NCBI GenBank assembly: GCA_003153155.1
Contig: PLWV01000013.1
Coordinates: 89,850-153,849 of the forward strand
Direction: 5' to 3'
From: Gallionella sp.
Lineage (GTDB): Bacteria; Pseudomonadota; Gammaproteobacteria; Burkholderiales; Gallionellaceae
Length of the DNA: 64,000 bases
Below the pieces are notes generated by a model, which worked only from the letters and a program-made list of their open reading frames with translations, made no database searches and was not told the origin of the DNA. The first letter of the stretch is position 1, and every line of letters begins with the position of its first letter. Shown piece by piece: positions 674-59,537 of this stretch. A program made the translations under genes and the position numbers.

Positions 674-992
674 TAACCAGACATTTAGCAATCGTTTTTA
701 GATTGCTTAGTGGAATGGCTATAACCAATGGCTTGCCCAGCGTCTTTCGGGTGCCCGTCCAAAAGTGTTTCGGATGCTGGGTTATAACCAGTCACTTGGT
801 TGTCGTTAACCAATGACTTAGTTGGCGTAGTTTACCAACTTAGTCAGATGGCTATACAAAGCCTTTTGACAACCTATAACCAACCACTTGGCAACCGTCT
901 TTTGGTTGCTTAGTGGGATGGCTAGTTGTTTCATCAGTGGAATGGCTAGTGGTTTTATTAGTCAAATGGTAGTTCTATCAGTAGTTCCATCA
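674..992 (+). repeat. NSL array A: nested stem-loop repeat units between the OMP gene and dacB
   Basis: This array holds several hairpin units with arms TAACCA and ATGGCTA. Unit 1 (674-722) pairs GCAATC with GATTGC. A second unit pairs CCCAGC with GCTGGG around a CGGGTGCCCG loop. A nested unit has TGACT (814-818) and GTTGG (821-825) facing CCAAC (835-839) and AGTCA (842-846). A further unit pairs CCACT/CAACC with GGTTG/AGTGG near 885-915. It ends in repeated GTAGTTCYATCA 12-mers. The final ATCA (989-992) contains the dacB stop codon on the minus strand. It fills the 433-bp gap between genes. Confidence 0.85.
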
Positions 993-2699
993 GTGCCCAG
1001 TTTGCAGCCACTCAATCAGCGCGTCTTGCGCGGGCTGTGCCAAAGCGGCATTAGGGTGATTGACGATGAACACCACGATCCACTGCTTGCCGCTGTGCGC
1101 TTTCACATAACCGGCGATGGATTTCACGCCTTCCAGCGAGCCGGTTTTGAGGTGCGCATATCCCGCGATCTCGCTATCCCTGAAACGTTTTTTCACCGTG
1201 CCGTCCATGCCTAATATCGGCAATGAGGCTTCCATCTCAGCGGAAAATGGGCTGTGCGTAGCACGTTGCAAAATCTCGGCAAGATGCAGAGCGCTGATGC
1301 GCTCCTTGCGTGACAAGCCCGCGCCGTTTTCCAGCACCAATTCCGGAAATTGCAGTTGTTGTGTCTTTAACCATTTTTGCATCGCCGCAGTACTGTGTGC
1401 GATGTTTGCTGCGGGAGGGTCGATGCGAAGCAGCGGGGCACCCACCGGCGTACTCCCTGCGGGTGTTGCGGGAGGGTCGCCGCCTGCGCCAAGACCGCCC
1501 AAAGGGCGAGTGTCTGGCGGCGTCACCTTTACGGGGGGCAGCGGCGGGACACCCACAGGTGCCGGCAATGGGACTGATAATTCCGCATCCGCGGTATCCC
1601 CGCCTTCCTGCTCAGCATGAAGGGATGTTTCACTAAGCGCTTGCGCTCTTGAAAAATCGTCACGGCTGTCTTTGCTATCAGTCGGCAACAGTCCTCCTGC
1701 ACTCCAAGAAGCACGTGCCGCATCTCTTGCAGTTCCTGCCGCTCCCATTGTCAAGAATAGTTGCCGTGCCATGATGTTGTTGCTGAATTTGTTGATGTCA
1801 CGTATCACTTCCGACAACGGCGGCGAGATATACTTGGCAAACGGAACCTGATCGGCAGGCGCAGTTCCTACCCGCAGCTTGCCTTGCAGCGTGCCGCCGA
1901 GTTCTTGCCATAACGCGCTGAACACCGCGAAGAAATATTCATCTTGCGGCAGTAGCGAAAAATAATCATCCGCCTCGCCGCAAGCAGCTGGAATACTGCC
2001 TTCCAGCACGATGCTGTGCCCGTCCAAACGCGCGTGGTAGGCATCCTCACCGTTACAATCCAAATTTGCCGAAGTCGTGATGTGATTGTGCAGTGTGTAG
2101 CCGGCCAGATCGGGCTCCAGCAGCGCAATGGTTGCATGGGCATCCGGAATCAGATGCAAATGCAGCGCATTAAAGTTGATCAGCAATGCGCTGGTGCCGA
2201 CGTTGTAAGCGCGAGTCGGATCATGGTCGAACTCCGCCGGATCGTTGCGGACAGCCTCAAAAAAACTGTGATCCAGCACGATGTCACCGCGTATTTCGCG
2301 CAGCCCGCGCTGGCGTAATTCGCGCAGCCACATCCAAAATTGCTCAACGGTCAGCTTCGGATCGCCATACCCCTTGAACACCAGATCGCCCTGCAACACG
2401 CCGTTTTCCAGCTTGCCGTTGAGATACGCCTCAGTCTTCCAGCGATACGCCGGGCCTAATGTTTCCAGTGCGGCAAAGGTTGTGAGCAACTTCATGGTAG
2501 ATGCCGGATTCATCGCCTGCTTGGCATTCAGGCTGATGATGGGCACATCCTCATGTTCCTCCTGCACCACGACAGCAACACTGGATAGCGGGATATGCGC
2601 GTGCCTAAGCGCCGCGCTGACAGGCTCCGGCAAAGTGGTTGCAAACACGGGACCGGAGAACAGGCTGAAGAAAAACAATTCGATGAAAAAATTTCGCAT
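990..2699 (-). CDS. dacB: D-alanyl-D-alanine carboxypeptidase/endopeptidase PBP4
   Basis: A 569-residue penicillin-binding protein of the DacB (PBP4, S13 peptidase) family that trims or cleaves peptidoglycan peptide cross-links in the periplasm. It has an N-terminal signal peptide, the catalytic SxxK motif (STMK, Ser67-Lys70), the SxN motif (SNN in 'KFSNNIMARQLF') and the KTG box (LKTGSLEG). It is roughly 90-100 residues longer than usual members. The excess is a Pro/Gly/Thr-rich low-complexity segment at about residues 320-425, between the SNN and KTG parts, which looks like a repeat inserted in frame. The stop codon lies inside the end of array A. bioA lies just upstream on the same strand, so co-transcription is likely. 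Confidence 0.93.
   Translation of the reverse strand: MRNFFIELFFFSLFSGPVFATTLPEPVSAALRHAHIPLSSVAVVVQEEHEDVPIISLNAKQAMNPASTMKLLTTFAALETLGPAYRWKTEAYLNGKLENGVLQGDLVFKGYGDPKLTVEQFWMWLRELRQRGLREIRGDIVLDHSFFEAVRNDPAEFDHDPTRAYNVGTSALLINFNALHLHLIPDAHATIALLEPDLAGYTLHNHITTSANLDCNGEDAYHARLDGHSIVLEGSIPAACGEADDYFSLLPQDEYFFAVFSALWQELGGTLQGKLRVGTAPADQVPFAKYISPPLSEVIRDINKFSNNIMARQLFLTMGAAGTARDAARASWSAGGLLPTDSKDSRDDFSRAQALSETSLHAEQEGGDTADAELSVPLPAPVGVPPLPPVKVTPPDTRPLGGLGAGGDPPATPAGSTPVGAPLLRIDPPAANIAHSTAAMQKWLKTQQLQFPELVLENGAGLSRKERISALHLAEILQRATHSPFSAEMEASLPILGMDGTVKKRFRDSEIAGYAHLKTGSLEGVKSIAGYVKAHSGKQWIVVFIVNHPNAALAQPAQDALIEWLQTGH
1400..1740 (-). repeat. in-frame low-complexity/repeat insertion inside dacB
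   Basis: This stretch encodes the extra Pro/Gly-rich segment of PBP4. Its core around 1411-1470 resembles an intergenic sequence at about 53293-53350: both contain GCGGGAGGGTC, AGCAGCGGGG, ACCCACCGGC and TGCGGGTG in the same order and spacing. In dacB the element keeps the frame open, which is like palindromic elements that insert within genes (Rickettsia RPE type). The outer limits are approximate. Confidence 0.6.
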
Positions 2700-2704
2700 T
2701 ACAC

Positions 2705-4135
2705 TTAACTCAGTTGGTTGACGATGTGCAAGGTACGATTTACCAGCAAATCCATTTCTGCTTCGCCGATTATATACGGCGGCATGAAATAAATCGTGTT
2801 GCCGATGGGGCGCAGCAATAATTCATTTTCCAGCGCGAGCGCGAAGCATTGCCGGGCAAAATTGCGCTGCGGCGTTTCCACTTCAAAAGCCCAAATCATG
2901 CCGGTGTTGCGCCAGTTTCGAACCGAGCGATGCTCGCGCAACGGCAGTGCGATCTGATTCAGGTATGCCGCCTTGTCACGGTTCGCGGCCAGCACATTAT
3001 CCTGCGCAAAAATATCCAGCGTGGCGAGCGCTGCCCGGCAGGCCAGCGGATTGCCGGTATAGGAGTGTGAATGCAAAAAACCGCTGGTCATTTCATCGCC
3101 ATAAAATGTCTGGTAAATTTCATCACGCGTCATCACCACCGACAGCGGCAGATAGCCGCCGGTAATACCTTTCGATAGACACAAAAAGTCCGGAGTAATT
3201 CCATTCTTCTTTATTCCCTCCCCCGTACTGTCGTGCTCCCCTCTCCCGCTTGCGGGGAGAGCGTAGCGAGGGGGGCGAAGCCGGTTGGGGGAGAGAGTGG
3301 TTGGGGCTTGCTCGCAGGCGAACATCGTGCCGGTTCGGCCCATGCCGACGGCGATTTCATCCGCGATCAAATGCACGTCATATTCAGCGCAAAGCTGCCG
3401 CGCGCGCTGCAAATAAATCGGGTGATACATCGCCATGCCCGCCGCACCTTGCACCAGCGGCTCGATGATGAAAGCGGCCAGTTGCGCATGATGTTGCTGC
3501 AAATGTTTCTCCAGCGCATCCGCGCAGCGCAGCGCGTAAGCCTCGGCACTTTCCCCAGCGGCGGCTTTGCGCCAGTCCGGGCTCGGCACGGTATCCTGTT
3601 GCCGGATCAGCGCGCCGTAAGCAGCGCGAAACAGCGCGACATCGGTCACCGACAACGCACCCAGCGTTTCGCCGTGATAACTGTTTTCCAGGCTGATGAA
3701 TTGCATCTTGTCCGGCTTGCCGCTGTTGCGCCAGTAATGCGCGCTCATCTTGAGTGCGATTTCCGTGGCCGATGCCCCATCAGAAGCATAGAAACAATGT
3801 CCCAACCCTTTCGGTGCCAGCTCGCGCAATCGCTCCGAAAGCTGCACCACCGGCTCGTGGGTAAAGCCCGCCAACATCACATGTTCCAGCGTTTCCAGTT
3901 GATCGCGCAATGCGGCATTGATGCGTGGATTGCAATGGCCAAACAAATTCACCCACCAGGAACTGACCGCGTCCAGATAACGCTTGCCACCAAAGTCATA
4001 CAGCCACACACCTGACCCGCGCGCAACCGGCAGCAGCGGAAAATGTTCGTAGTGTTTCATCTGCGAACATGGATGCCACACGGCAGCGAGGCTGCGGACA
4101 AGGAGATTGGTGTTGTTTTGCGGGTGATTCGACAT
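2705..4135 (-). CDS. bioA: adenosylmethionine-8-amino-7-oxononanoate aminotransferase
   Basis: This is a PLP-dependent class III aminotransferase of biotin synthesis, converting KAPA to DAPA with S-adenosylmethionine as amino donor. It shows the BioA hallmark 'WHPCSQM' near the start, 'DAVSSWWVNLFGH', 'YHGETLGALSVTD', the PLP-aspartate region 'LIADEIAVGMGRTG' and the Schiff-base lysine in 'LSKGITGG'. Between 'MFACEQA' and 'GITPDFLCLSKG' lies an extra segment of about 30 residues, encoded by a repeat at about 3210-3315. It sits near the active-site lysine and may impair the enzyme. The start at 4135 (MSNHPQ) was preferred to an upstream ATG at 4195. No other bio genes are in the window. Confidence 0.93.
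   Translation of the reverse strand: MSNHPQNNTNLLVRSLAAVWHPCSQMKHYEHFPLLPVARGSGVWLYDFGGKRYLDAVSSWWVNLFGHCNPRINAALRDQLETLEHVMLAGFTHEPVVQLSERLRELAPKGLGHCFYASDGASATEIALKMSAHYWRNSGKPDKMQFISLENSYHGETLGALSVTDVALFRAAYGALIRQQDTVPSPDWRKAAAGESAEAYALRCADALEKHLQQHHAQLAAFIIEPLVQGAAGMAMYHPIYLQRARQLCAEYDVHLIADEIAVGMGRTGTMFACEQAPTTLSPNRLRPPRYALPASGRGEHDSTGEGIKKNGITPDFLCLSKGITGGYLPLSVVMTRDEIYQTFYGDEMTSGFLHSHSYTGNPLACRAALATLDIFAQDNVLAANRDKAAYLNQIALPLREHRSVRNWRNTGMIWAFEVETPQRNFARQCFALALENELLLRPIGNTIYFMPPYIIGEAEMDLLVNRTLHIVNQLS
3210..3315 (-). repeat. in-frame palindromic repeat insertion inside bioA
   Basis: The sequence holds a palindrome, CTCTCCCGC-TT-GCGGGGAGAG, followed by GTAGCGAGGGG and GGTTGGGGGAGAG. 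This type is normally intergenic in proteobacteria; a relative lies at 53145-53230. Here it adds about 30 codons (reading PTTLSPNRLR..., ending GEGIKKN) without breaking the bioA frame. Limits are approximate. Confidence 0.65.
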
Positions 4136-4222
4136 GCGCAGAATCATAACGGGTTTTGCAGCTTGTGCGCATGGCAAAGTTTGGATAGTCTGCAACCCAA
4201 CCTGATTTCAGGCGGAGGGAAT

Positions 4223-5122
4223 GTGCATATTCTCATCACCGGTGGCACGGGCTTAATCGGCCGGCAGCTTTGCAAGGTACTACTGGCGGAAGGGCATGAG
4301 TTGACGGTACTGAGCCGCAACCCGGATTCTGTTCCGGCAAAATGCGGTGCAAGCGTGCATGCGATGGCTGGGCTTGACGAGTGGCAATCCGGCCAGACTT
4401 TCGATGCGGTCATCAATCTGGCCGGTGAGCCGATAGTCGATGCACGCTGGACAGCGCAGCGCAAGCAAGTTCTATGGGATAGCCGGGTATCTTTGACAGA
4501 AAATTTGGTGCGGCGCATCGCCGCCGCGCGGCACAAACCCGGCGTATTGTTGAGCGGCTCGGCGGTAGGCTACTACGGTAATCACGGAGATACCGGGCTG
4601 GATGAATCGGCTGCGGCTGGTGAAGATTTTGCCGCCCGGTTATGCAAGGCCTGGGAAGACGCGGCGCGCGGCGCGGAAAGCTTTGGAGTGCGGGTGTGCC
4701 TGCTGCGTACCGGCTTGATACTAAGCAACGACGGCGGTCTGTTGGTACGCATGCTGCTGCCGTTCAAGCTGGGCTTGGGCGCGCGTCTGGGTGATGGAAA
4801 GCAGTGGATGAGCTGGGTACATATTGATGATTATGTGGCGATGTTGCTCAGCTTGTTGCGCAATTCCCAGGCCAGCGGACCATACAATATGACCGCTCCA
4901 CAACCGGTCACTAATGCGGAATTCACTGCGGCCCTGGCGGTGGTATTGCATCGCCCCGCCCCATTCATTGTGCCGGCAATGTTGTTGAAATTAGGCATGG
5001 GTGAACGCGCCTGCCTGTTGCTGGAAGGACAAAGAGTGTTGCCGAAGAAGATGGAGGCGGCACGCTATCGCTTTGCCTTTACAAATCTCGCAGACGCGCT
5101 ACACGACTTGCTGGGCAAGTAG
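4223..5122 (+). CDS. TIGR01777-family NAD-dependent epimerase/dehydratase (YfcH-like)
   Basis: A 299-residue SDR-fold protein with the N-terminal dinucleotide motif GGTGLIG ('HILITGGTGLIGRQL'), 'VINLAGEPI', 'SGSAVGYYG' and the C-terminal 'LLEGQRVLPKKMEAARYRFAF' that defines the TIGR01777/DUF1731 family. The physiological substrate is unknown for the family. I place the start at the GTG at 4223, because a GGAGG ribosome site sits 4-5 bases upstream and the family begins at this motif; an open frame continues upstream to 4043 without similarity. It is divergent from bioA, whose 5' end lies about 90 bp away. Confidence 0.88.
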   Translation: MHILITGGTGLIGRQLCKVLLAEGHELTVLSRNPDSVPAKCGASVHAMAGLDEWQSGQTFDAVINLAGEPIVDARWTAQRKQVLWDSRVSLTENLVRRIAAARHKPGVLLSGSAVGYYGNHGDTGLDESAAAGEDFAARLCKAWEDAARGAESFGVRVCLLRTGLILSNDGGLLVRMLLPFKLGLGARLGDGKQWMSWVHIDDYVAMLLSLLRNSQASGPYNMTAPQPVTNAEFTAALAVVLHRPAPFIVPAMLLKLGMGERACLLLEGQRVLPKKMEAARYRFAFTNLADALHDLLGK

Positions 5123-5269
5123 TTTTTGCAGTTTATGTCCATGCCATAAAACTGACCTTGCTTTCCGTATCACCCCATTTGTGTCATCCTTCGCACCTTA
5201 ATGTATGTGCACAGTGTTTATTTCTGTCCCTTTTGTTAAATATTATGGGGCGGTCGGAGGATGGCAGTA

Positions 5270-6523
5270 ATGAAACGGGTTGATGATTTCCGCCTGCGCT
5301 TTGGCAAGCGCGAGCTGGTGCCGATTATAATTGGCGGAATGGGCGTGGATATTTCCAGTCGCGAATTGGCTCTGGAAGCCGTGCGGCTGGGTGGGATTGG
5401 GCATATATCCGATGCGATGTTGCCTACCGTTACGGATCGCCACTACAAAACAAAATTTGTCAGCGACAAACAAAAACAATACAAACTTAACATTCTGAAA
5501 GCTGACAAATCGATCGTGCAATTCGATCTGGCGCAGGTGACTGAATCGACCCACTTGCACGTCGGCAAGACGATGGAAGCCAAACGCGGCGATGGCATGA
5601 TTTTTGTCAACTGCATGGAAAAATTGACCATGAATTCGCCGCGCGAGACTTTGCGCGTGCGGCTTTGTGGCGCACTGGATGCCGGGATTGACGGCATAAC
5701 ATTAAGCGCGGGGCTGCACCTCGGATCATTCTCGTTGATGGAAGATAACCCACGCTTCCGCGACGCCAAGCTGGGCATCATCGTCTCCTCGTTGCGCGCC
5801 TTGCAATTGTTCATGCGCAAGACAGCCAGACTCAATCGCCTGCCCGATTACATCGTGGTGGAAGGCCCGTTGGCGGGCGGACATCTGGGCTTCGGATTGG
5901 ATTGGGCGGAATATGATTTGCACACCATCGTGGCGGAAATCGTTGCGCACTTGAAAGCCGAACAACTGGATATCCCGGTAATCGCAGCGGGTGGTGTCTT
6001 TACCGGTAGCGATGCAGTCGACTTCCTGGAAAAAGGCTGTGCTGCGGTACAAGTGGCGACGCGCTTTACCGTTGCCAAAGAATGCGGCATCCCGGAAAAA
6101 GTCCAGCAGGAATACTTCAAGGCCAGCGAGCAGGACATCGAAGTCAATATGATTTCACCGACCGGCTACCCGATGCGCATGTTGAAGAATAGTCCGGCGA
6201 TCGGCGCCGGCATACGCCCCAACTGTGAAGCATACGGCTACCTCCTCGACGCTCATGGCCATTGTGCTTACATCGATGCATACAACCGCGAAGTGGCGTT
6301 GTATCCCGATGCCAAAAAAATTTCCGTGATGGACAAGACTTGTCTGTGCACCCATATGCGCAACTATGATTGCTGGACCTGCGGGCAGTACACCTATCGT
6401 CTCAAAGACACCTCGCACCGCAATGCCGATGGCACTTATCAGATTTTGACCGCCGAACACATTTTCAAGGACTATCAGTTCAGCACCGATAACAAGATCG
6501 CCCTTCCCCCGCCTCACTCTTGA
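5270..6523 (+). CDS. nitronate monooxygenase / 2-nitropropane dioxygenase-like FMN oxidoreductase
   Basis: A protein of about 417 residues with the TIM-barrel FMN-binding layout of the NPD family: 'IIIGGMGVDISSRELALEAVRLGGIGHIS' at the N terminus, 'VVEGPLAGGHLGFGLDW' with the catalytic-type GGH(x)G segment, and phosphate-binding 'PVIAAGGVFTGSDAVDFLEKGCAAVQVATRF'. The C-terminal extension is unusual and cysteine-rich ('CLCTHMRNYDCWTCGQY'), suggesting a metal or Fe-S site. The substrate is not predictable. The start at 5270 is preferred because the GGAGG at 5255-5259 is too close to the ATG at 5261. groES follows on the same strand, with its own promoter between. Confidence 0.85.
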   Translation: MKRVDDFRLRFGKRELVPIIIGGMGVDISSRELALEAVRLGGIGHISDAMLPTVTDRHYKTKFVSDKQKQYKLNILKADKSIVQFDLAQVTESTHLHVGKTMEAKRGDGMIFVNCMEKLTMNSPRETLRVRLCGALDAGIDGITLSAGLHLGSFSLMEDNPRFRDAKLGIIVSSLRALQLFMRKTARLNRLPDYIVVEGPLAGGHLGFGLDWAEYDLHTIVAEIVAHLKAEQLDIPVIAAGGVFTGSDAVDFLEKGCAAVQVATRFTVAKECGIPEKVQQEYFKASEQDIEVNMISPTGYPMRMLKNSPAIGAGIRPNCEAYGYLLDAHGHCAYIDAYNREVALYPDAKKISVMDKTCLCTHMRNYDCWTCGQYTYRLKDTSHRNADGTYQILTAEHIFKDYQFSTDNKIALPPPHS

Positions 6524-6548
6524 AATAAAAATAAACCTCCACCCTGCC

Positions 6549-6575
6549 CTTGAAATCGGGCGGGGTTGCCCCGAT
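6549..6575 (+). promoter_or_regulatory. sigma32 (heat-shock) type promoter of groESL
   Basis: CTTGAAA at 6549-6555 and CCCCGAT at 6569-6575 are separated by 13 bases. This fits the RpoH consensus CTTGAAA-N(11-16)-CCCCATNT closely. It lies directly before the CIRCE operator and about 75 bp before the groES ATG. Confidence 0.75.
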
Positions 6576-6577
6576 TA

Positions 6578-6604
6578 TTGGCACTCGCAGGCAGAGAGTG
6601 CTAA
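6578..6604 (+). promoter_or_regulatory. CIRCE operator (HrcA binding site) upstream of groES
   Basis: TTGGCACTC (6578-6586), a 9-base spacer and GAGTGCTAA (6596-6604) match the CIRCE inverted repeat TTAGCACTC-N9-GAGTGCTAA with one mismatch. Next to the sigma32-like promoter it implies dual control: induction by RpoH and repression by HrcA. hrcA itself is not in the window. Confidence 0.92.
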
Positions 6605-6651
6605 ACTTCGCCTCCACATTTTTTAACCCCTTAGTTTTAGGAGACCTCAGT

Positions 6652-6945
6652 ATGAAAATTCGTCCTTTGAACGATCGCGTGATCGTTAAACGCATGGAAG
6701 AAGAACGTAAAACCGCCTCTGGAATTGTGATTCCGGATGCCGCCACCGAAAAGCCCGATCAGGGTGAGATCATCGCCGTGGGCAAAGGCAAGGTTGGCGA
6801 TGACGGCAAATTGCAGGCCATGAGTGTCAAGGTTGGTGACCGGGTACTGTTCGGCAAATATGCCGGCCAAGCCTTCAAAATGGATGGTCAGGAATATATG
6901 ACCATGCGCGAAGATGACATCATCGGCGTGGTTGAAGGTAAGTAA
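6652..6945 (+). CDS. groES: co-chaperonin GroES
   Basis: A 97-residue Hsp10 that caps the GroEL ring in the cytoplasm. The sequence begins '[18 protein letters not shown]', has the mobile loop region '[19 protein letters not shown]' and ends '[17 protein letters not shown]', all diagnostic. An AGGAG ribosome site precedes the ATG at 6652. It is the first gene of the groESL operon, 57 bp before groEL. The gap contains a short direct repeat (AAGTATTT) and the groEL ribosome site. Confidence 0.98.
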
Positions 6946-6981
6946 CTACCCCCGAAAATTAAAAAGTATTTGGGAAATTAA

Positions 6982-8643
<1,662 letters not shown>

Positions 8644-8728
8644 TTGAACCTACTGCGCGATTCGATTGCTGTGTTGCGCGGTTCTCACTTCCTCGCCTAC
8701 TCCAAAAGTATGTCTCGGTCGTTGCGCT

Positions 8729-8773
8729 GACCAGCGACTTGGCTGGCGTTTTTTGCCAGCTTAGTCGAATGGC
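8729..8773 (+). repeat. NSL element B: single stem-loop unit downstream of groEL
   Basis: A single unit with CGACT (8735-8739) facing AGTCG (8763-8767) and an inner stem CTGGC (8743-8747) facing GCCAG (8755-8759) around a T-rich loop. The arms read TGACCAG and AATGGCCA, slightly diverged from the usual TAACCAG/AATGGCTA. It lies between groEL and its likely terminator. Confidence 0.75.
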
Positions 8774-8833
8774 CATGCAGAGTTCCGTGCGCCTTGCACT
8801 CGAACCGCTCGCTACGGTTCAGTACATAAATTA

Positions 8834-8963: not shown

Positions 8964-9114
8964 GGCCTGGTAGCTCAGTCGGTATAACCAGCCTGCGTGT
9001 GTTGTTGGGGCTTTAGCCCCTTACAACCACGGCGTACCCCTTGCGGGTGTACTTGGTGAGTGTTTTTTCTCACCTAGTCGAATGGCTAGTAGTTCCTTCA
9101 GAGCAGAGGATTGA
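8964..9114 (+). pseudogene. partial tRNA-Phe copy interrupted by NSL array C
   Basis: 8964-8984 is identical to the first 21 bases of the intact tRNA-Phe at 9299 (acceptor 5' strand, D stem and D loop). 9101-9114 is identical to the following bases (GAGCAGAGGATTGA), up to the anticodon loop. Between them lie 116 bp of NSL repeat. After 9114 the match stops, so the 3' half of the tRNA is missing. It cannot make a functional tRNA. Confidence 0.85.
8985..9100 (+). repeat. NSL array C inserted in a tRNA-Phe copy
   Basis: It begins TAACCAGCC and ends ATGGCTAGTAGTTCCTTCA. It contains the GTTGT..GGGGCTTTAGCCCC..ACAAC hairpin and a GTACCCC-TTGC-GGGTGTAC stem, both shared with array F, then a GGTGAG/CTCACC stem. 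Compared with the intact tRNA-Phe, the insert sits exactly between GGTA and GAGC, with no clear target-site duplication. Confidence 0.85.
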
Positions 9115-9298: not shown

Positions 9299-9374
9299 GG
9301 CCTGGTAGCTCAGTCGGTAGAGCAGAGGATTGAAAATCCTTGTGTCGGTGGTTCGATTCCGCCCCGGGCCACCA
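9299..9374 (+). tRNA. tRNA-Phe (anticodon GAA)
   Basis: A 76-nt cloverleaf. The acceptor GGCCTGG pairs with CCGGGCC; the D stem is GCTC/GAGC; the anticodon stem GAGGA/TCCTT encloses the loop TTGAAAA, giving anticodon GAA. The T arm GGTGG-TTCGATT-CCGCC and an encoded ACCA 3' end are present. It lies about 190 bp after the interrupted copy and 70 bp before prfC. The stretch between (9115-9298) holds only short inverted sequences such as AACTTGC/GCAAGTT. Confidence 0.96.
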
Positions 9375-32576: not shown

Positions 32577-32780
32577 TAACCAGCGACTTGGCTGTCGACT
32601 TTTGACAGCTTATAACCAACCACTTGGCAACCGCCTTTCGGGTGCCCGGCCAAAAGTTCTTCGGCTGGTTGCTTAGTGGGATGGCTAGTTGTTTTATCAG
32701 TCGAGTGGCTATAACCAGCCGCTTGCCCCGCACTTTGGTGCTTAGCGGAATGGCTAGTAGCCTCATCAGTAGTTCTATCA
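32574..32780 (+). repeat. NSL array D, abutting the KTSC stop codon
   Basis: It starts TGATAACCAG and ends CTATCA. Its units include a GCTGTC/GACAGC hairpin; CCACT-TGG-CAACC with GGTTG-CTT-AGTGG around the CGGGTGCCCG loop; and CCGCT with AGCGG enclosing GCAC/GTGC. The terminal 12-mers are of the GTAGTTCTATCA type. The rest of the 395-bp gap (32781-32971) holds GCTAATGGGGTCAGCATC and TCGTGGTCTGTCCCCGATT motifs and no gene. Confidence 0.85.
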
Positions 32781-39440: not shown

Positions 39441-39920
39441 GGACACCTCTAAAAATCCGGATTTCATCCCAACTGATGGAACTACTGATATGACTACTAG
39501 CCATCTGACTAACCCAGCAAAAGACGCTGGGTAAGTCATTGGTTATAGCCATGCCACTGATGAAACTCCTAGCCATTCCACTAGGTTGTCAAAAGGCTTT
39601 GCATAGCCATCTGACTAAGTTGGCAAACTACGCCAACTAAGTCATTGGTTAACGACAACCAAGTGGCTGGTTATAAGTCGCCAAAAAACGGCAACCAAGT
39701 GGCTGGTTATGCTGCGCTGCGAAAAAACTCCTTGCTTGCATATCGATACATATGCGGTGCTGCAAAATTTTTTAGTTCCGGCCAACCTGAAGGTTACCCT
39801 ACACTGAAACTTTGTTTTCCGCGCCTAGCTGACGATTCCGCACGAGCTGCTTTTGCCCGTAGCGGATCGGCGTCCCCTTGTGGGGCATTTGGGCGAACTC
39901 TGAATTTTTAGAGGCACCCT
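39441..39920 (-). mobile_element. MITE-like element, copy 1, carrying NSL array E
   Basis: Terminal inverted repeats are imperfect: GGACACCTCTAAAAATCC at 39441 and TTTTTAGAGGCACCC ending at 39919/20. Inside, it shares with copy 2 (41817-42041, opposite orientation) CATCCCARC, TTGCTTRCATAT, CATATGCGG, TAGTTCCGGCCAACCT, AGGTTACCCTACACTGAAAC and CATTTGGGCGAACTCTGAATT. It contains the NSL array as an insert of about 236 bp. No transposase is encoded. It fills most of the 645-bp gap 39329-39973. Confidence 0.8.
39474..39709 (-). repeat. NSL array E inside a MITE
   Basis: Read on the minus strand it begins TAACCAGCCACTTGG and ends GTAGTTCCATCA. Units: TGACT-TA-CCCAGC facing GCTGGG-TT-AGTCA (39507-39539), and an outer CCACT-TGG-TTGTC/GACAA-CC-TAGTGG hairpin that encloses a complete inner unit TGACT-TA-GTTGGC/GCCAAC-TT-AGTCA. 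Comparison with MITE copy 2 gives the uninterrupted site, with flanks ..GCA and GYTGGGATG. Confidence 0.85.
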
Positions 39921-43555: not shown

Positions 43556-43819
43556 TGATAACCAGCCTGCGTGTGTTGTTGGGGCTTTAGCCCCTTACAA
43601 CCACGGCGTACCTCTTGCGGGTGCACTTGGTTGTCGTTAACCAGCGGCTTATGTCACCGTCTTTAGGTGACTTAGCCGAATGGCTATGCAAAGCCCTTTG
43701 ACAACCTATAACCAACCACTTGGCAACCGTCTTTCGGGTGCCCGGCCAAAAGTTCTTCGGCTGGTTGCTTAGTGGGATGGCTAGTCGTTTTATCAGTGGA
43801 ATGGCTAGGTGTTTCATCA
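43556..43819 (+). repeat. NSL array F between convergent genes
   Basis: It starts TGATAACCAGCCTGCG and ends TTTCATCA. First comes the GTTGT/ACAAC hairpin with GGGGCTTTAGCCCC, identical to array C. Then an outer GGTTGTC/GACAACC unit encloses the inner unit CGGCT-TAT-GTCACC (43645-43658) facing GGTGAC-TT-AGCCG (43666-43678). Then CCACT-TGG-CAACC pairs with GGTTG-CTT-AGTGG around CGGGTGCCCG. It occupies nearly all of the 318-bp gap between the reductase fusion and yaeQ 3' ends. Confidence 0.85.
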
Positions 43820-53144: not shown

Positions 53145-53353
53145 CGCCAACCCTCATCCTAACCTTCCCCCAGAGGGGGGGAAGGAACGATCGCCTCCTC
53201 CCCCTTGGGGGGAGGATTGAGGTGGGGGCTGAGCGAATGACGAGGCATATCAGATTGGATAGACGAGGAATGAGCGAGCATGCGACACCGCGAGCGGGAG
53301 GGTCACTGAGTAGCAGCGGGGAACCCACCGGCCTATCCCTTGCGGGTGGATTC
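53145..53353. repeat. palindromic repeats between tag and dapF
   Basis: 53145-53230 carries CTTCCCCC-AGA-GGGGGGGAAG and CCTCCCCC-TTG-GGGGGAGG hairpins of the widespread type that also sits in frame inside bioA. 53290-53350 holds GCGGGAGGGTC, AGCAGCGGGG, ACCCACCGGC and TGCGGGTG, in the same order as in the dacB insertion at 1411-1470. No gene is present in this 318-bp gap. Confidence 0.75.
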
Positions 53354-53376
53354 GCCCGACAAATGGATTTATTTAG

Positions 53377-54207
53377 ATGCTATTGAAGTTCACCAAAATG
53401 CATGGCGCCGGCAATGACTTCGTGGTGCTGGATGGCGTGCGTCAGCACATCAAGCTCAGCCCGGAACAACTGCGTCTGCTGGCCGACCGGCATTTTGGCG
53501 TCGGATGCGACCAAATTTTATTGGTTGAAAAAGCCCATACTAAAGAGGCCGATTTTCGCTACCGCATCTTCAACGCCGACGGCGGAGAAGTGGAACAGTG
53601 CGGCAATGGCGCGCGCTGCTTTCTGCGCTTCGTGCATGACCAGAAATTGACCCCCAAGCGGGAGATCGTGGTGGAAACACTCGGCGGATTGATCAGTCCG
53701 CGTCTCGAACAAGACGGGCGCGTGACGGTCGATATGAGCCCGCCGGTTTTTGAACCGTCACGCATTCCATTCAATGGCGGCAGCGGTGCGGTAAGCGAGC
53801 CGCTGGAAGTCGCCGGCGAAACGCTGAATATCAGCGCGCTGTCGATAGGCAATCCGCATGCCGTGCAACTGGTGTCGGATGTCGAGCGTGCAGCGGTGGA
53901 AAAACTAGGGCCGCTGATCGAACATCACCCGCGCTTTCCCAAGCGCGTCAATGCCGGTTTCATGCAGGTAATGGATCGCCATTCCTTGCGGCTACGCGTG
54001 TATGAACGCGGCGCGGGGGAAACCCTGTCGTGCGGTACCGGGGCTTGTGCCGCAGTCGTGGCCGGCATTCGGCGCGGGTTGCTGGACAGCCCGGTGAACG
54101 TTGCCACACGCGGCGGCGTGTTGACCATCACCTGGGATGGCGATGGCCAGCCGGTGCTGATGACCGGTCCGGCGATTACGGTATTTGCAGGCGAAATCAA
54201 TTTATAG
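53377..54207 (+). CDS. dapF: diaminopimelate epimerase
   Basis: A 276-residue, cofactor-free racemase converting LL- to meso-DAP for lysine and peptidoglycan synthesis. It starts '[19 protein letters not shown]'. The two catalytic cysteines are in '[13 protein letters not shown]' and '[16 protein letters not shown]'. It heads the dapF-DUF484-xerC-rlmI operon; this order, often with lysA upstream, is common in proteobacteria. Confidence 0.97.
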
Positions 54208-54216
54208 GGAGTGGCG

Positions 54217-54843
54217 ATGAGAGCTGAAGAAGTAGCGCAATATTTGCAGAACAACCCGCAGTTCTTTGAGGAACATGTCGAAACGCTGGCGCAAATCAAC
54301 CTGCCGCACCCGCATGGCGGGCGCACGATTTCGTTGAGCGAACGACAGATGCTTGCCTTGCGCGAGAAGAACAAGGAGCTGGAAAAAAAGCTGCGCGAAA
54401 TTATCACGTTCGCACAAGATAACGATGCACTGCAACACAAGGTGCATGAATTCGTCGTTGCGCTATTCGCCGCGCGCGACCTGACCACGCTGCAGGAAAT
54501 GATCCCGCATTTGTTGCGCGATATCTTTGCCATACCGCACACCGTGTTGCATCTGTGGCAGACCAACCCGCCCAGCGCGGAAGTTTTGGCCTTTGCGGAT
54601 GCACAATCGCAACCGGTTTGCCTGCATCATGCCGCACACGACACCGCCGTATGGTTTGGCGAGCGTGCCGCGCAATTGCACTCTTACGCCTATTTGCCCT
54701 TACATGCGGGCAATGAGACCATAGGTTTGCTGGTACTCGCGAGCGAAGACAAGCAACGTTTTTACCCGGAAATGGGCACGGTGTTCTTGCAACGCATCGC
54801 CGAAGCGGTGAGCAGTGCGCTGCATCCGTATCTCACCCATTAG
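54217..54843 (+). CDS. DUF484 family protein
   Basis: A 208-residue protein. The N-terminal helical part is 'MRAEEVAQYLQNNPQFFEEHVETLAQINLPHPHGGRTISLSERQMLALREKNKELEKKLREI' (including a short coiled coil); the C-terminal part is a GAF-like domain ending 'EMGTVFLQRIAEAVSSALHPYL'. The function is unknown, but the gene almost always lies between dapF and xerC. ATG 54217 is preferred over GTG 54211, which overlaps the AGGGAG ribosome site. Confidence 0.9.
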   Translation: MRAEEVAQYLQNNPQFFEEHVETLAQINLPHPHGGRTISLSERQMLALREKNKELEKKLREIITFAQDNDALQHKVHEFVVALFAARDLTTLQEMIPHLLRDIFAIPHTVLHLWQTNPPSAEVLAFADAQSQPVCLHHAAHDTAVWFGERAAQLHSYAYLPLHAGNETIGLLVLASEDKQRFYPEMGTVFLQRIAEAVSSALHPYLTH

Positions 54844-54859
54844 TTATGCCAAATATGAA

Positions 54860-55762
54860 ATGACAGATGCCGCCACACCCAACCAACAATATCTGAATGG
54901 CTACTTGGCGTGGCTGCGCAACGAGAAGCAGTATTCCAAACTGACCGCAGAGAATTATGCCCGCGACCTCAAACATCTGTTCGAGCTGGCCGCAGAGACA
55001 CGGCTAGCCAATCTTAAGATCCATCACATCCGCCGCTTCATCGCGCAACTGCACAGCAAGGGTTTAGGCGGTCGTTCGCTGGCGCGCATGTTGTCGGCTT
55101 GGCGCGGCTTTTTCACTTATTTGATGCGCGATCACGGCCTGACCGACAATCCCTGCGTCGGACTGCGCGCACCCAAGTCGCCGAAGACTTTGCCGCAAGC
55201 CTTGTCGCCCGACGAGGCTGCGCGAATGGTCGACCTGCCGACTGACACAACTGAAGCGATACGCGACAAGGCGATATTCGAATTGTTTTATTCCTCCGGC
55301 CTGCGGCTGGCGGAACTGGTCAACCTCGATCCCGGGCAACTCGACTTGAGCGCAGGGGAAGTGCGCGTGACCGGCAAAGGCAGCAAGACGCGCATCGTGC
55401 CGCTCGGCCAGTTTGCCATCACCGCGCTGCAAGCCTGGCTGGCGGTGCGCAATCAACTGGCCAAAGCGGACGAAACCGCGTTGTTCGTCGGGCAACGCGG
55501 GTCACGCATTTCGCCGCGTGTGGTGCAACTGCGCATGAAGCAATGGGGCATCAAACAGGGCATCACCAGCAATGTACATCCGCACCTGCTGCGCCACTCG
55601 TTTGCCACTCACGTGCTGCAATCCAGCGGTGACTTGCGCGCCGTGCAGGAAATGCTCGGCCACGCCAGCATCTCCACCACTCAGGTTTATACCCATCTCG
55701 ATTTTCAATACCTCAGCAAGATTTACGACGCGGCTCATCCGCGCGCCAAGAAGAAAACATGA
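54860..55762 (+). CDS. xerC: tyrosine recombinase XerC
   Basis: A 300-residue site-specific recombinase resolving chromosome dimers at dif together with XerD. The N-terminal core-binding domain is 'YLAWLRNEKQYSKLTAENYARDL'. The catalytic R in 'SGLRLAELV', 'TGKGSKTRIVPL', HxxR in 'HPHLLRHSFATH', and the H and Tyr in 'GHASISTTQVYTHLD' are all present. Its stop overlaps the rlmI start by 4 bp (ATGA). The start at 54860 fits the family. Confidence 0.96.
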   Translation: MTDAATPNQQYLNGYLAWLRNEKQYSKLTAENYARDLKHLFELAAETRLANLKIHHIRRFIAQLHSKGLGGRSLARMLSAWRGFFTYLMRDHGLTDNPCVGLRAPKSPKTLPQALSPDEAARMVDLPTDTTEAIRDKAIFELFYSSGLRLAELVNLDPGQLDLSAGEVRVTGKGSKTRIVPLGQFAITALQAWLAVRNQLAKADETALFVGQRGSRISPRVVQLRMKQWGIKQGITSNVHPHLLRHSFATHVLQSSGDLRAVQEMLGHASISTTQVYTHLDFQYLSKIYDAAHPRAKKKT

Positions 55763-57093
55763 CCCTCCAGAAAACAAAATCTCGCTCCACGCCGCACCGC
55801 CCTTCACTAGGTAACCGGGATTTTCGCAACCGGACCAAACGCAGCGCTCAAACTACTGATAGCCAGAACACTCGCGGTGCGGCGCATGCCGGAGAAGCTA
55901 CCGCACAGCCCGGCATCATCCTCAAAGCAGGCCGCGAAAAATCCCTGCTGCGCCGCCACCCGTGGATATTTTCCGGCGCAGTCGAGCGCGTGGATGGCGC
56001 GCCCATCAGCGGCGACACGCTATCCGTGCGCAGTGCACAAGGCGAATTCCTCGCTTGGGCAGCATACAACGCCGGCTCACAAATCACCGCGCGGGTCTGG
56101 TCGTGGCGTGAAGAGGAAAATATTGACGCGGAATTTTTTCGCAACAAAATTTCCAGCGCGCTGGCGGCGCGCAGCGAGCTAAATCTTTCGCGCAACAGCA
56201 ACGGCATGCGCCTGATCCACGCCGAATCCGACGGCCTGCCGGGACTGATCGTCGATCAATACGGCGACGTGCTGGTGATGCAAATTGGCAGCGCGGGAAC
56301 GGAGCGCTGGCGCGACACCATCGCCGACATCCTGCAAGAACTCTGTAAGCCTGCGTGTATTTACGAACGCTCTGATTCCGAATCGCGTGCACTGGAAGGG
56401 CTGGAGCTGCGCAACGGCGTGCTGCGCGGCACGTTGCCCGATACCGTGGAAGTGATTGAGAACGGCCTGCGCTTCAAGGTGGATGTGGTATCAGGACAAA
56501 AGACCGGCTTCTATCTCGACCAGCGCGACAACCGCGCGCTGACCGGGACATTGGCGTGCGATAAAGACGTGCTGAATTGTTTTTGCTACACCGGCGGCTT
56601 CTCGCTGTATGCGCTGCGCGGCGGCGCAAAATCGGTGCTGTCGATCGATGCGTCGGGTGATGCGCTGCGCATCGCCGCAGAGAATTTAACCAGCAACGGG
56701 CTGGATACATCACGTGCCGAATGGGTGGAAGCGGATGTGTTTCAGGCGCTGCGCAAACTGCGCGACCAAGGACTATCATTCGACCTCATCATCCTCGACC
56801 CGCCCAAGTTCGCCCCCACCGCCGCCTTTGCCGAAAAGGCCGCGCGCGGCTACAAGGACATCAACCTGCTTGGCTTCAAGCTGCTCAGGCCGGGCGGCTT
56901 GCTCTGTACCTATTCCTGCTCCGGCGGCATCAGCGAAGACCTGTTCCAGAAGATCGTCGCCGGTGCCGCACTCGATGCCGGCGTGGATGCGCAAATCATT
57001 CACCACCTGCACGCCAGCGCCGATCATCCGGTGCTGCTCAGTTTTCCAGAGGGTGCGTATTTGAAGGGGTTGGTGTTACGGGTGGGATTGTAG
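55759..57093 (+). CDS. rlmI: 23S rRNA (cytosine-5) methyltransferase RlmI-like
   Basis: 444 residues. After a basic N-terminal extension of about 50 residues, a PUA domain ('IILKAGREKSLLRRHPWIFSGAVERVDG') leads to an EEHEE part and the SAM domain: 'KTGFYLDQRDNRALTG', 'VLNCFCYTGGFSLYALRGGAKSVLSIDAS', 'FDLIILDPPKFAP' and 'LLCTYSCSGGIS', which has the catalytic Cys. RlmI makes m5C1962 in 23S rRNA. The N-terminal extension is probably real because of the ATGA overlap with xerC, but a later start near the PUA domain cannot be excluded. Confidence 0.92.
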   Translation: MTLQKTKSRSTPHRPSLGNRDFRNRTKRSAQTTDSQNTRGAAHAGEATAQPGIILKAGREKSLLRRHPWIFSGAVERVDGAPISGDTLSVRSAQGEFLAWAAYNAGSQITARVWSWREEENIDAEFFRNKISSALAARSELNLSRNSNGMRLIHAESDGLPGLIVDQYGDVLVMQIGSAGTERWRDTIADILQELCKPACIYERSDSESRALEGLELRNGVLRGTLPDTVEVIENGLRFKVDVVSGQKTGFYLDQRDNRALTGTLACDKDVLNCFCYTGGFSLYALRGGAKSVLSIDASGDALRIAAENLTSNGLDTSRAEWVEADVFQALRKLRDQGLSFDLIILDPPKFAPTAAFAEKAARGYKDINLLGFKLLRPGGLLCTYSCSGGISEDLFQKIVAGAALDAGVDAQIIHHLHASADHPVLLSFPEGAYLKGLVLRVGL

Positions 57094-57100
57094 CCAGTCC

Positions 57101-58120
57101 CTATGCAGCAGGAACAATTTGCCCGTTAATCTGAACACCATAGGAAAAACGAACATGTTTATTGTCTCGCTGCATATGTTCTGGAGGTAATTCGATCACT
57201 TGCGTCGGGAAACCACCGATGTACTGCACGTGTTTACGGCACAAATGGGCAAGCATATTTTCAAATATTCCAGATAAGCCATCAACTGCATCCGCCATAA
57301 ACCAAGAGATAGGCACTGGCGAATAACGTTCACTTCGGTAGACTGCCTCAATCATAGGCGGAGAAATCTTCCCATCAGCGCCAAGACTAAAATCGCTAAC
57401 TATGGCCATTTGGGTTGGCGGCTGTGGGTGCTCGAGGCAATTTCGAACATTCCGGATGTATTTCAATCTCGGCGCGACATCTTTCGCAAACCTTGCGAAG
57501 GGATCGTCTTCACCATATTTCTGCACAGCCAATTTAGCGAGGGATTCAAACCCTCCAGTTCCCACATCTTTTTCATAGAACAACTTGACGATGCTAAACA
57601 TGCTTTGCGAAGCATGATCTGCCTTTTGGTAAAACGTCTTGCAGCGTACTGCCACATCGCCAATCGCAGGCATTATCATGGCACCATGCGTTTTTTGGCG
57701 GTTGTTAAAAGCATCAATTTCTGTACGTTCCGATAACCGAAACGCTTCCATTGCTTCTTGCATAGCCACAATATCTTTCAAAGCATCAAACGACAACATG
57801 ACAGCTCGTTCACAGTCGAATGTCGGCGGTAGATATGTTTTTTTAAAGAGACTGTTGGCAGTAAGCAACGTCCGCCCCACTAACTCAGACTCAGAACCGC
57901 AAGTAAGAACCCGTTGTTGAATATTTGGGATGTTTGGGTTGAGGCGCTCTGGATCGATGGAGTCGGCAAGCTTAACTGCGTAAATACCGTTTTCTTTAAC
58001 GATATATAAAACATCACAAATAGGAATCATTGCCGTAATCGCACTACTATCATCGGCAGATCCAATTTCCATTTTGCCTGCGGACTCTCGCAAGCGGTCA
58101 ATTGGTCTTTTTTCGCTCAT
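57101..58120 (-). CDS. uncharacterised protein with a HEPN-like RxxxxH motif
   Basis: 339 residues, no signal peptide or membrane helix. It is predicted helical, for example 'DIVAMQEAMEAFRLSERTEIDAFNNRQKTHGAMI' and 'VRCKTFYQKADHASQSMFSIVKLFYEKDVG'. 'YIRNVRNCLEHPQPP' carries an R-x4-H pattern (RNCLEH) as in HEPN ribonuclease or nucleic-acid-related domains. The family is not recognised. Base composition is more AT-rich than in the neighbouring rlmI. It lies alone between two housekeeping clusters, a position typical of an acquired accessory gene. Confidence 0.7.
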   Translation of the reverse strand: MSEKRPIDRLRESAGKMEIGSADDSSAITAMIPICDVLYIVKENGIYAVKLADSIDPERLNPNIPNIQQRVLTCGSESELVGRTLLTANSLFKKTYLPPTFDCERAVMLSFDALKDIVAMQEAMEAFRLSERTEIDAFNNRQKTHGAMIMPAIGDVAVRCKTFYQKADHASQSMFSIVKLFYEKDVGTGGFESLAKLAVQKYGEDDPFARFAKDVAPRLKYIRNVRNCLEHPQPPTQMAIVSDFSLGADGKISPPMIEAVYRSERYSPVPISWFMADAVDGLSGIFENMLAHLCRKHVQYIGGFPTQVIELPPEHMQRDNKHVRFSYGVQINGQIVPAA

Positions 58121-58440
58121 TTTCCTTCGTTAAATCTTTAGAACCTTCGTGTGCTTCCCCTCCCCTCATTCGCCACCGAGTAGCACAGGCTGGTCAGGGG
58201 ATTTCGGCGAGCACTATTTGAGCATGTGGCCGCGCAGCGGATCATGCGAGTTGCGCAGCCGCCTGACCAGACGAGCAACGCAGGAAACCCCGTGAGGGGT
58301 GGCGGATTGGGGTCGCCTTTTCTTGGGTTACTTTCTTTTGGCGAAGCAAAAGAAAGTAACTAGCTGCCGGGCTACCCCCGGCGATTTCCCCTTGAACACT
58401 GTATCAATTCATTCACCCTTCGATACCTCAGGGCGAACGG
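58121..58440. repeat. repeat-filled gap between the HEPN-like gene and rlpA
   Basis: The 328-bp gap contains a 34-base palindrome at 58328-58361 (GTTACTTTCTTTTG-GCGAAG-CAAAAGAAAGTAAC) within the widespread 'GGTCGCC..TGGGTTACTTTCTTTTGG' repeat, preceded by CTGACCAG/CTGGTCAG inverted motifs. Near 58419 comes a CCTTCGA..CTCAGGGCGAACGG repeat as in the prmC start. No gene is supported. Confidence 0.7.
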
Positions 58441-58448
58441 CCAATCAA

Positions 58449-59405
58449 TTACGGCAAATTCACCATCGGCTTGAACCCCAGCTTCCCTTCCAAACTCTCC
58501 GCGCTGCTGCGCGCTTCGCTCTGGTTGGCATACGGGCCGATATGCACGCGCACCAGCCCGTCTTTCGTGGTGGACAATTTGAACTGCTTGCCGGTGTTGC
58601 CGAGTTCGGTGCGCATACGCACCAGAAAGCTCTCGGCATTCTGTTGCGATTCGAATGCGCCGAGTTGCAGATAAACATCGTTGTCGCTGTTTTCCAGCGA
58701 TGCCAGTGCGACCGGTACAAGTGCGGTTTCAGGTACATCAGCCGCGGCGGCAGGCGCGCTGCTTTCCAGCGGCTTGCTTTGCACCGGTTCACTGGCGGCC
58801 ATGGGGATGATGCTGGCATTGGCAGCCAGGCTTTCCACTTTGACTTCCGCACTGCCGTCGCCGAGGATGCCCAGTTTGTACGCGGCGGTATAGGACAGGT
58901 CGATCACACGATCACTCAGGAACGGGCCTCTGTCATTGATGCGCACGATGACCGACTTTTGATTGGCGAGATTCGTCACGCGCGCATAGCTGGGCACCGG
59001 CAATGTGGGATGCGCGGCGGTCATGGCGTACATGTCATAAGTCTCGCCGCTGGAAGTGCGCTCACCATTGAATTTTTTGCCATACCATGAGGCGATGCCG
59101 CGCTCTTTGAACTTTCCAGCCACGGTCAGCGGCTTGTAAGTCTTGCCCAGCGCGACATAGGGGCGATTGGCATAACGATGCAACGGTTCGTTTTTCGGCA
59201 CAGCATCCGGTATCGCATCAAGATTAACGGGGATATCCGCCCCCGGTCCATCCCCGGCGAGGTAGCCGCCGACACCGGGCGCGCCGGCTGCGCGATTTTC
59301 AGCCGGTGTGGTGGTGCCGGGCGTCGCAGCCTTGCGGTGCGGCAGTGCGCCGCAAGCGGCGAGCAGCAAGGTTGCCAATATCAGAACTGCGGTTTTTTTG
59401 CTCAT
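58449..59405 (-). CDS. rlpA: septal ring lytic transglycosylase / rare lipoprotein A
   Basis: A 318-residue outer-membrane lipoprotein. The lipobox is 'TLLLAACGALP'. The double-psi beta-barrel domain contains 'GIASWYGKKFNGERTSSGETYDMYAMTAAHPTLP' and 'VRINDRGPFLSDRVIDLSYTAAYKLG' (catalytic Asp in NDRGPF). It ends with a C-terminal SPOR domain ('VYLQLGAFESQQNAESFLVRM ... GPYANQSEARS') that binds denuded glycan at the septum. It is the last gene of mreC-mreD-mrdA-rodA-rlpA. NSL array G lies between the rodA stop and its AGGAG ribosome site. Confidence 0.95.
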   Translation of the reverse strand: MSKKTAVLILATLLLAACGALPHRKAATPGTTTPAENRAAGAPGVGGYLAGDGPGADIPVNLDAIPDAVPKNEPLHRYANRPYVALGKTYKPLTVAGKFKERGIASWYGKKFNGERTSSGETYDMYAMTAAHPTLPVPSYARVTNLANQKSVIVRINDRGPFLSDRVIDLSYTAAYKLGILGDGSAEVKVESLAANASIIPMAASEPVQSKPLESSAPAAAADVPETALVPVALASLENSDNDVYLQLGAFESQQNAESFLVRMRTELGNTGKQFKLSTTKDGLVRVHIGPYANQSEARSSAESLEGKLGFKPMVNLP

Positions 59406-59417
59406 GCGATCTCCTAT

Positions 59418-59537
59418 TAACCAGCCACTTGGCTAGTGTATTTTGGTGGCCTAGTGGAATGGCTATAACCAACCACTTGGCAACCGTCCTCTGGTTGCTT
59501 AGTGGGATGGCTAGTTGTTTCACCAGTTGTTTTATCA
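59418..59537 (+). repeat. NSL array G at the rodA-rlpA junction
   Basis: It begins TAACCAGCCACTTGG and ends TTTTATCA. Unit 1 pairs CCACT (59425-59429) with AGTGG (59453-59457). Unit 2 pairs CCACT/CAACC (59473-59485) with GGTTG/AGTGG (59493-59505). The terminal ATCA (59534-59537) supplies the rodA stop codon on the minus strand. The other end lies next to the rlpA ribosome site. In the mRNA it would form hairpins within the operon. Confidence 0.85.

Follow-up and report, generated by a model that had tools for sequence, protein, structure and literature searches.

To understand what builds the clusters of stem-loops that recur along a 64,000-nucleotide stretch of Gallionella sp. DNA (contig PLWV01000013.1 of assembly GCA_003153155.1, positions 89,850 to 153,849; hereafter the window), we asked whether the repeated unit has defined ends, a defined target and a plausible means of spread. 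A preliminary description had recognised seven arrays, A to G, of hairpins that are chained together and also sit inside one another, and all seven are present. The arrays are most likely stacks of a precisely inserting 60-base hairpin, a non-autonomous mini-transposon that would travel as folded single-stranded DNA through the action of a trans-acting enzyme. Clean units in 452 kb of the same genome define the repeat as a 60-base element, made of a 48-base hairpin followed by a conserved 12-base tail, GTNGTTTCATCA. An example of the hairpin reads TAACCA-n-CCACT-t-GGTTGTC-loop-GACAACC-t-AGTGG-nn-TGGCTA, with the tail immediately after it. Two tails occur, that of type I elements being GTNGTTTCATCA and that of type II elements TGCAAAGC. 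The hairpin and its arms had been described correctly, whereas the 3′ tail, the two tail types, the A|G insertion rule and the copies within genes set out below had been missed; because the tail was overlooked, nested chains had looked like tandem units. A profile search returned 271 full-length elements, of which 225 were kept after removal of duplicates, of elements with short or N-bearing flanks and of those not ending in A (so that the terminal A is true by construction); 201 of the 225 are exactly 60 nt long.

In 39 type I elements from the source genome, 96.4% of the cells in the 17 pairs of the hairpin are paired, changes on both sides are found at ten of the 17 pairs, and the covariation score is 0.408, compared with 0.160 ± 0.013 when shuffled and 0.016–0.137 for slid versions, which bears out the compensatory stem changes noticed earlier. 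Once elements from other families of the order are taken in, two-sided changes extend to 14 of 18 pairs and reach the terminal arms: in another family the arms CAAGCA/TGCTTG, CAGCCA/TGGCTG and TAAGC/GCTTA pair again while the tail is unchanged, and tail positions 49, 52, 53, 57, 59 and 60 are invariant across 22 elements from three families. Some mismatches are themselves conserved among the 39 elements, namely A3.C46 (39/39), T13.T35 (36/39) and a purine mismatch at 7/41 (G.A in 21, A.G in 15). Since the arms vary with compensation while the tail stays the same, recognition may depend on shape for the arms and on sequence for the tail. Folded as single-stranded DNA, two elements gave z-scores of −3.5 to −4.6 on both strands, and G.T mismatches outnumber A.C mismatches by 56 to 18, which speaks for folding of the plus strand. 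The tetranucleotide GTNG, on the 3′ side of the hairpin, has A as its third base in 96 cases, T in 60, G in 24 and C in 9 (n = 189).

The junctions between elements and their surroundings indicate that entry is exact. Among the 225 elements, 128 were called non-nested, and 125 remained after removal of like joints. For 74 of these 125, the joined flanks correspond to an uninterrupted copy elsewhere in 2.5 Mb of sequence, in the same or another genome (at least ten bases matched on each side, 85% identity). Matches fell to 6–9 of 125 when the cut was shifted by one base, to two when it was shifted by two bases and to three when the flanks were swapped. A search for the target-site duplication typical of miniature inverted-repeat transposable elements (MITEs) thus yielded 74 exact joins and only 2–9 joins that were one or two bases off, from which we conclude that entry is precise and leaves no target duplication; in this respect the element differs from MITEs of DDE transposases. 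This joined-flank test replaced an offset control with script-made cuts that proved too tolerant, as 4–12 split elements were still recovered despite moved cuts. The 74 insertions lie in sequence that is itself repeated. The preferred site is A|G, with A at position −1 in 94% and G at +1 in 87% of the 125 non-nested elements.

Part of the target preference concerns secondary structure. A perfect stem of at least five pairs enclosing a loop of 3–8 bases is present at the joint in 18 of the 125 targets, compared with a mean of 5.3 and a maximum of 11 in 50 shuffles and with 6–9 of 125 at six places 14–28 bases from the joint; the joint lies near the 3′ edge of the hairpin loop. For type II elements the corresponding figure is 21 of 60 (mean 3.7 and maximum 8 in 30 shuffles), although about a quarter of the 60 matches, including two of the 21 with a stem, look like chance products of a loose pattern. 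Type II elements often occupy hairpin loops, including those of their own family, where they mostly follow a T. Repeats of GAGGACA or similar sequence (L099, L149 and L215) hold type I elements at ACA|GA, an arrangement that recalls the small dispersed repeats (SDRs) found in cyanobacterial tandem heptamers.

Nesting follows the same rule. The 452 kb from the source genome contain 47 contiguous type I elements and a further 22 that become visible only after inner elements are cut out; 11 type II elements and 19 elements of a 27-nt type III were also excised. The joint is A|G in 79 of 97 nested cases, most commonly at GCTA|GTAG, the foot of another element's hairpin, and next most commonly at CTTA or CCTA|GTSG within the stem. 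Insertion at the foot of a hairpin produces the order hairpin-hairpin-tail-tail, like brackets. When inserts are removed in order, arrays D and E (by script) and F (with hand-coded cuts) each reduce to one 60-nt outer element, in agreement with the early observation of units inside units; array A also collapses with hand-coded cuts, one of its inner elements having decayed to 56 nt.

Elements are also found within genes. The minus strand of the element is open in two frames and, for many variants, the plus strand in one. In the 121 elements whose loci are long enough, 25 reading frames of at least 100 codons on each side are open with the element and two only without it; the corresponding counts are 10 and 0 at 150 codons or more and 43 and 7 at 60 codons or more, a few loci being counted twice, once on each strand. 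Removal from RNA in the manner of an intron was rejected, since closed frames are rare in long open reading frames (ORFs). Pfam analysis of 40 distinct ORFs with at least 60 codons on both sides placed the element in a domain match or between two domains of one protein in 17: PurL, PdxA, MutS, IleRS, ValRS, two CysRS, a Mur ligase, MurB, PrmC, a GHMP kinase, a methyltransferase, two helicases, two transporters and an AAA/SPOR protein. The PurL and PdxA copies belong to the source genome, and the MutS, IleRS and CysRS copies to other genomes. The other 23 ORFs have a domain on just one side of the element, an unclear one or none, so that these copies may lie between genes. For six of the 17, alignment with relatives in the PDB breaks around the element in every case. 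As judged from these reading frames, the cell probably translates and tolerates the gene copies and does not remove them.

The single full-length PurL gene of the source genome carries an in-frame insert of 111 nt, 60 nt of which are the element, that is absent from all 13 aligned relatives (23 relatives gave a match). The remaining 51 nt are similar to sequence around another copy (C16, 293 kb), and the PurL element therefore probably arrived with a larger repeat. A structure model of a 1009-residue part of PurL with the insert had a mean predicted local distance difference test score (pLDDT) of 37.7 and is not usable. PurL (L010) has a second insertion hot spot at residues ~197–230, where several relatives carry differing in-frame inserts, some of them apparently repeat-derived. 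A piece resembling the type IV element described below (GGCGTACTCCTTGCGGGTG) also lies within the PurL gene of the source genome.

The element is a genus-wide feature with a patchy distribution beyond. By BLAST, 24 of the 25 genomes examined from the genus carry the unit, as against none of 16 from other families of the order. A covariance model recovered it from 59 of 61 congeneric genomes and, as lower bounds given that few candidates were scored per genome, from at least 21 of 250 genomes and 13 of 120 genera of the order (own genus included) and at least 2 of 398 genomes of the phylum, both from its own family; copies thus extend well beyond the window, as had been anticipated. In a pattern scan of named genomes, 54 of the 80 matches listed are titled Gallionella, Gallionellaceae, Gallionellales, Sideroxydans or Ferrigenium, and the remaining titles among the matches listed are Nitrosomonadales bacterium (18), Proteobacteria (5), Sulfuricella (2) and Betaproteobacteria (1). 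Viral records gave three pattern matches, two of which carry a full type I element (IMG/VR contigs L281 and L282) while the third looks like chance; viral copies are a possible route between genomes. No match was found in a plasmid or a phage collection, with one element compared with each. Compensatory change implies that the fold matters, and many copies lie between genes, as might be expected of a non-mobile structural RNA or regulatory array (a terminator, or a site for an RNase or protein) kept for its function. The exact empty sites, the absence of the PurL insert from all 13 aligned relatives, the range of contexts from a tRNA copy to enzyme genes and the patchiness across the order all argue against such an array, which we consider highly improbable.

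Starting from the observed ends, site preference, nesting order, covariation, genus-wide spread and retention of open reading frames, a mechanism can be proposed. The element inserts mostly at A|G, duplicating no target sequence, into other repeats, into its own copies and, in frame, into conserved genes. Cleavage behind ...CA| and joining to a target A|G would leave no duplication, as in HUH-type transposition, and an A|G near the 3′ edge of a hairpin loop would be the favoured target. Because the element brings its own A|G at the edges of its stems (the GGCTA|GTAG foot and the CYTA|GTSG stem), new copies would land in old ones and the brackets would grow. Within genes, elements occur almost only where the frame reads through them, each adding 20 residues. 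Transposition as a single strand fits the lack of duplication, the fixed ends, the folded element and the preference for hairpins. The mover is probably a Y1/HUH protein acting in trans, an assignment that we make with modest confidence.

Several observations weigh against this mechanism. At the targets, 107 of 125 have no perfect stem of at least five pairs at the joint. Some copies ride in larger repeats: in one genome (G148; L314–L317, L319 and L320) an element with other arms lies within a larger multicopy repeat and its flanks are shared, which indicates that some copies spread by riding in another repeat. No autonomous version, with a gene between the arms, was detected in 2.5 Mb. One distant arm pair, 8.4 kb apart (L060), was set aside as a coincidence without further test. 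The 33 Y1-transposase loci that we tested (95 kb; other Y1 hits were left out) contain no unit within ~1.5 kb, where one or two would be expected by chance, so that zero signifies an absence of enrichment and nothing more. Nine of the 61 genomes have no PF01797 hit and yet hold 4–89 units; two of these have 89 units, both being 83% complete. Y1, Y2, IS110 and PF00078 are all absent from four genomes (G006, G051, G056 and G064), one of which, G056, is a single contig, 99% complete, with 32 units; old copies would explain the units in genomes that have none of the four families. With respect to replication, counts by hand of elements on the lagging and leading strands were 21 and 10 in G056, which is suggestive, and 17 and 18 in G043, which shows no bias (1 and 10 units, respectively, of unclear or unsampled position being left out). 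Finally, the strand signals conflict. Where neighbouring genes are co-directional, 35 elements are antisense and 15 sense (ORFs of at least 180 codons, p = 0.007; 42 and 17 in a looser count), and this orientation bias rather points to the minus strand as the folded one, whereas the G.T excess points to the plus strand. We give the orientation bias little weight, as ORF calling was crude and the minus strand of the element is open in two frames.

Across the 61 genomes searched, none of Y1 (PF01797), Y2 (PF04986), IS110 (PF02371) and RVT_1 (PF00078) is present in every unit-bearing genome, and each was rejected as a universal mover on this count. Y2 occurs in 22 of the 61 only. The source genome, 95% complete, has three Y1 hits with no units nearby and two partial Y2 hits; neither IS110 nor a PF00078 reverse transcriptase was found in it, reverse transcriptase families outside PF00078 lying beyond the search. 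The number of Y1 hits correlates with that of units (rho 0.42, p = 0.0008), while reverse transcriptase hits do not (rho −0.09), and both correlations are rough since unit numbers saturate near 89 in the covariance-model counts.

The Y1 correlation and the Y1 hits of the source genome are what would be expected if the unit were a repetitive extragenic palindromic (REP) or REPIN-type element mobilised by a RAYT (Y1) transposase that the same genome encodes, the possibility being strengthened by the GTNG beside the foot of the hairpin and by the location of REPs within palindromes in some species (PMC3733652). GTAG REPs are often close to RAYT genes (PMC3733652), whereas no unit lies near the tested Y1 loci, and GTAG or GTGG 5′ of the hairpin, a trait of GTAG REPs, is not seen here, the variable tetranucleotide standing 3′; membership of the GTAG REP/RAYT group fails on these two features, and the genomes with units and no PF01797 hit may argue in the same direction insofar as their repeats are active. 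As reported, CGTC-type REPs likewise have no RAYT genes flanked by them and no dedicated transposase, and they end in short tails (PMC3733652, PMC3116915). They would not be expected to show RAYT proximity, and the missing link does not, on that description, exclude every kind of REP. Overall, we regard a RAYT-driven origin as doubtful, and the REP/RAYT or IS200/IS605 route raised in the preliminary description is not supported as it was put, given the Y1 loci devoid of units and the unit-rich genomes that can lack PF01797.

Two other routes can be considered beside single-strand transposition. The strong structure and the tolerance of G.T above A.C on one strand would suit spread via RNA, in which a structured transcript is reverse-spliced or copied by a reverse transcriptase, and such a route has been proposed for cyanobacterial SDRs. 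PF00078 is, however, absent from 38 of the 61 genomes, the source genome among them, unit numbers do not follow reverse transcriptase hits, and insertions occur in both orientations relative to adjoining genes; spread via RNA is thus unlikely. Alternatively, folded single-stranded hairpins might be recombined by a tyrosine recombinase, either an integron integrase or a Xer-like enzyme. Integron attC sites are folded-strand sites joined without duplication, and Xer, to our knowledge near-universal, would fit the genomes that have none of the four families. No attC-like core was noticed by eye, no dedicated search having been run, and we judge recombination of this kind very unlikely.

In the window, 15 type I, 4 type II, 3 type III and 2 type IV elements were parsed, most of them by script; the coordinates of the two outer elements of array A, of array C, of the outer element of F and of the type IV pieces were coded by hand. 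The 13-mer ATGGCTATAACCA (up to two mismatches) occurs five times in the window, once outside the arrays, compared with a mean of 0.88 in 100 shuffles that never reached five. Array E lies on the minus strand and the other six on the plus strand. The ends previously given for A, C, E and G are exact, whereas D and F begin three bases further in and B is longer. The outermost type I element of array A (674–992) is 60 nt without its inserts, and its flanks join as the palindrome GCAC-TA|GTGC. At its hairpin/tail joint sits a second type I element (722–980), with 56 nt left and a decayed 3′ arm, whose loop holds a 27-nt type III variant (748–774). A third type I element (785–960) is split by two more, a type II element with the tail TACAAAGC in its loop (807–862) and an intact 60-nt type I element at CCTA|GTGG (877–936); rejoined, it measures 60 nt. 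Array B is a lone type II element (8728–8783). Array C is a type I element (8985–9100) that measures 59 nt once its insert is excised; it lies in a truncated tRNA-Phe copy, where the D-loop has its 3′ edge (GCTCAGTCGGTA|GAGC), and has a 57-nt type IV element within its 5′ arm (8993–9049). The tRNA-Phe gene itself is complete at 9299–9374; upstream of it, its initial 35 nt recur and are split by the array (8964–8984 and 9101–9114); the rest of the copy is missing, and this may be an old integration site.

In array D, the outer type I element (32577–32780), exactly 60 nt without inserts, contains one nested type I element (32613–32699), which itself carries a type III element (32639–32665), and a second (32712–32768) at GGCTA|GTAG of the outer element. 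The outer type I element of array E (39474–39709), 60 nt without inserts, holds an intact 60-nt type I element at its GGCTA|GTAG (39486–39545) and a second-level type I element (39558–39673) with a type II element in its loop (39596–39651). The outer type I element of array F (43559–43819) is exactly 60 nt without its three inserts: a type IV element in the 5′ arm (43567–43623), a type II element in the loop (43638–43694) and a nested type I element (43709–43795) that carries a type III element (43735–43761). Array G comprises an outer type I element (59418–59537), whose left flank ends in T rather than A, split at GGCTA|GTTG by an intact 60-nt type I element (59466–59525). Type III is a 27-nt element, CGGGTGCCCGGCCAAAAGTTCTTCGGC, found in type I loops at the three places given, and is also a target of type I insertion, at GGCCA|AAAG; type IV is a 57-nt element found within the 5′ arms of the type I element of C and the outer one of F. 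Rfam recognises two tRNAs and no other family above the gathering threshold in the window, as expected from the earlier account, and at a relaxed threshold the best match to array E is weak (17.5 bits, against a threshold of 60).

Comparison with known systems places the element near several of them. IS200/IS605 and IS91/Helitron elements move with no target duplication, have a hairpin near an end and use short target motifs. Like IS200/IS605, the Gallionella element inserts 3′ of a short motif and duplicates nothing; it differs from both groups in that it encodes no transposase and its hairpin starts at the very 5′ end. An IS200/IS605-type TnpA was not found between the ends of the 60-nt element, and there is no long version in the 2.5 Mb. 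The SDRs that Elhai and colleagues reportedly described from Nostoc punctiforme in Genome Research in 2008 are dispersed hairpin repeats of 21–27 nt with compensatory changes and reportedly nest in themselves and insert into tandem heptamers and other repeats. The likeness to SDRs lies in very small dispersed hairpins, compensatory change, self-nesting and entry into other repeats; the Gallionella element is set apart from SDRs, so described, by its length of 60 nt, its combination of hairpin and fixed tail, its defined A|G site, its copies in genes and its occurrence in another phylum. The earlier view that no described family has this recursive form was therefore too strong, the more so as REPs have been reported within palindromes.

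REPs and REPINs, in the passages drawn on here, are also short multicopy hairpins with a tag beside the foot, sometimes lying in palindromes and sometimes in genes (PMC3733652, PMC3116915). The Gallionella element differs in its lack of a RAYT link, its variable GTNG on the 3′ side, its single hairpin with a 12-nt tail and its bracketed nesting. Rickettsia palindromic elements (RPEs) are palindromic, 105–150 bp long and reside in frame in conserved protein genes and also in RNA genes of rickettsiae, according to the portions of the literature used (PMC10969869, PMC2229807). They resemble the present element in such in-frame residence (17 of the 40 ORFs in our case); compared by description only, they are longer than its 60 nt, and hairpin-loop nesting is absent from those passages on RPEs (PMC10969869, PMC2229807). 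The element accordingly appears to belong among small non-autonomous hairpin elements, combining fold-defined recognition, exact bracketed self-targeting and residence in core genes in frame, three properties that do not occur together in the passages on REPs and RPEs. Among the matches listed for open-licence PMC papers on repeats in Gallionella or Gallionellaceae, nested hairpin repeats, SDRs and RPEs, in the extracts available, it is undescribed. We tentatively raise the further possibility that this is a new class of mobile DNA of nearly minimal size: a gene-less 60-base hairpin, recognised by its fold and not its sequence, that selects A|G sites at hairpin loops and stem edges, its own among them, and so builds up bracketed arrays, that also serves as an in-frame insert of 20 residues in core enzymes, and whose mover, an enzyme that integrates single strands, lies outside the Y1, Y2, IS110 and reverse transcriptase families tested.

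Since the nesting order can be read as brackets, each array preserves the order in which its insertions took place, and their empty sites can often be found uninterrupted elsewhere. With ends, site and fold dependence defined to the base, the question of how gene-less hairpin repeats multiply becomes testable. The in-frame copies in PurL, PdxA, MutS and tRNA synthetases provide a second system, beside Rickettsia, for the addition of peptides to core enzymes by mobile DNA, in this case among relatives of the iron-oxidising Gallionella.

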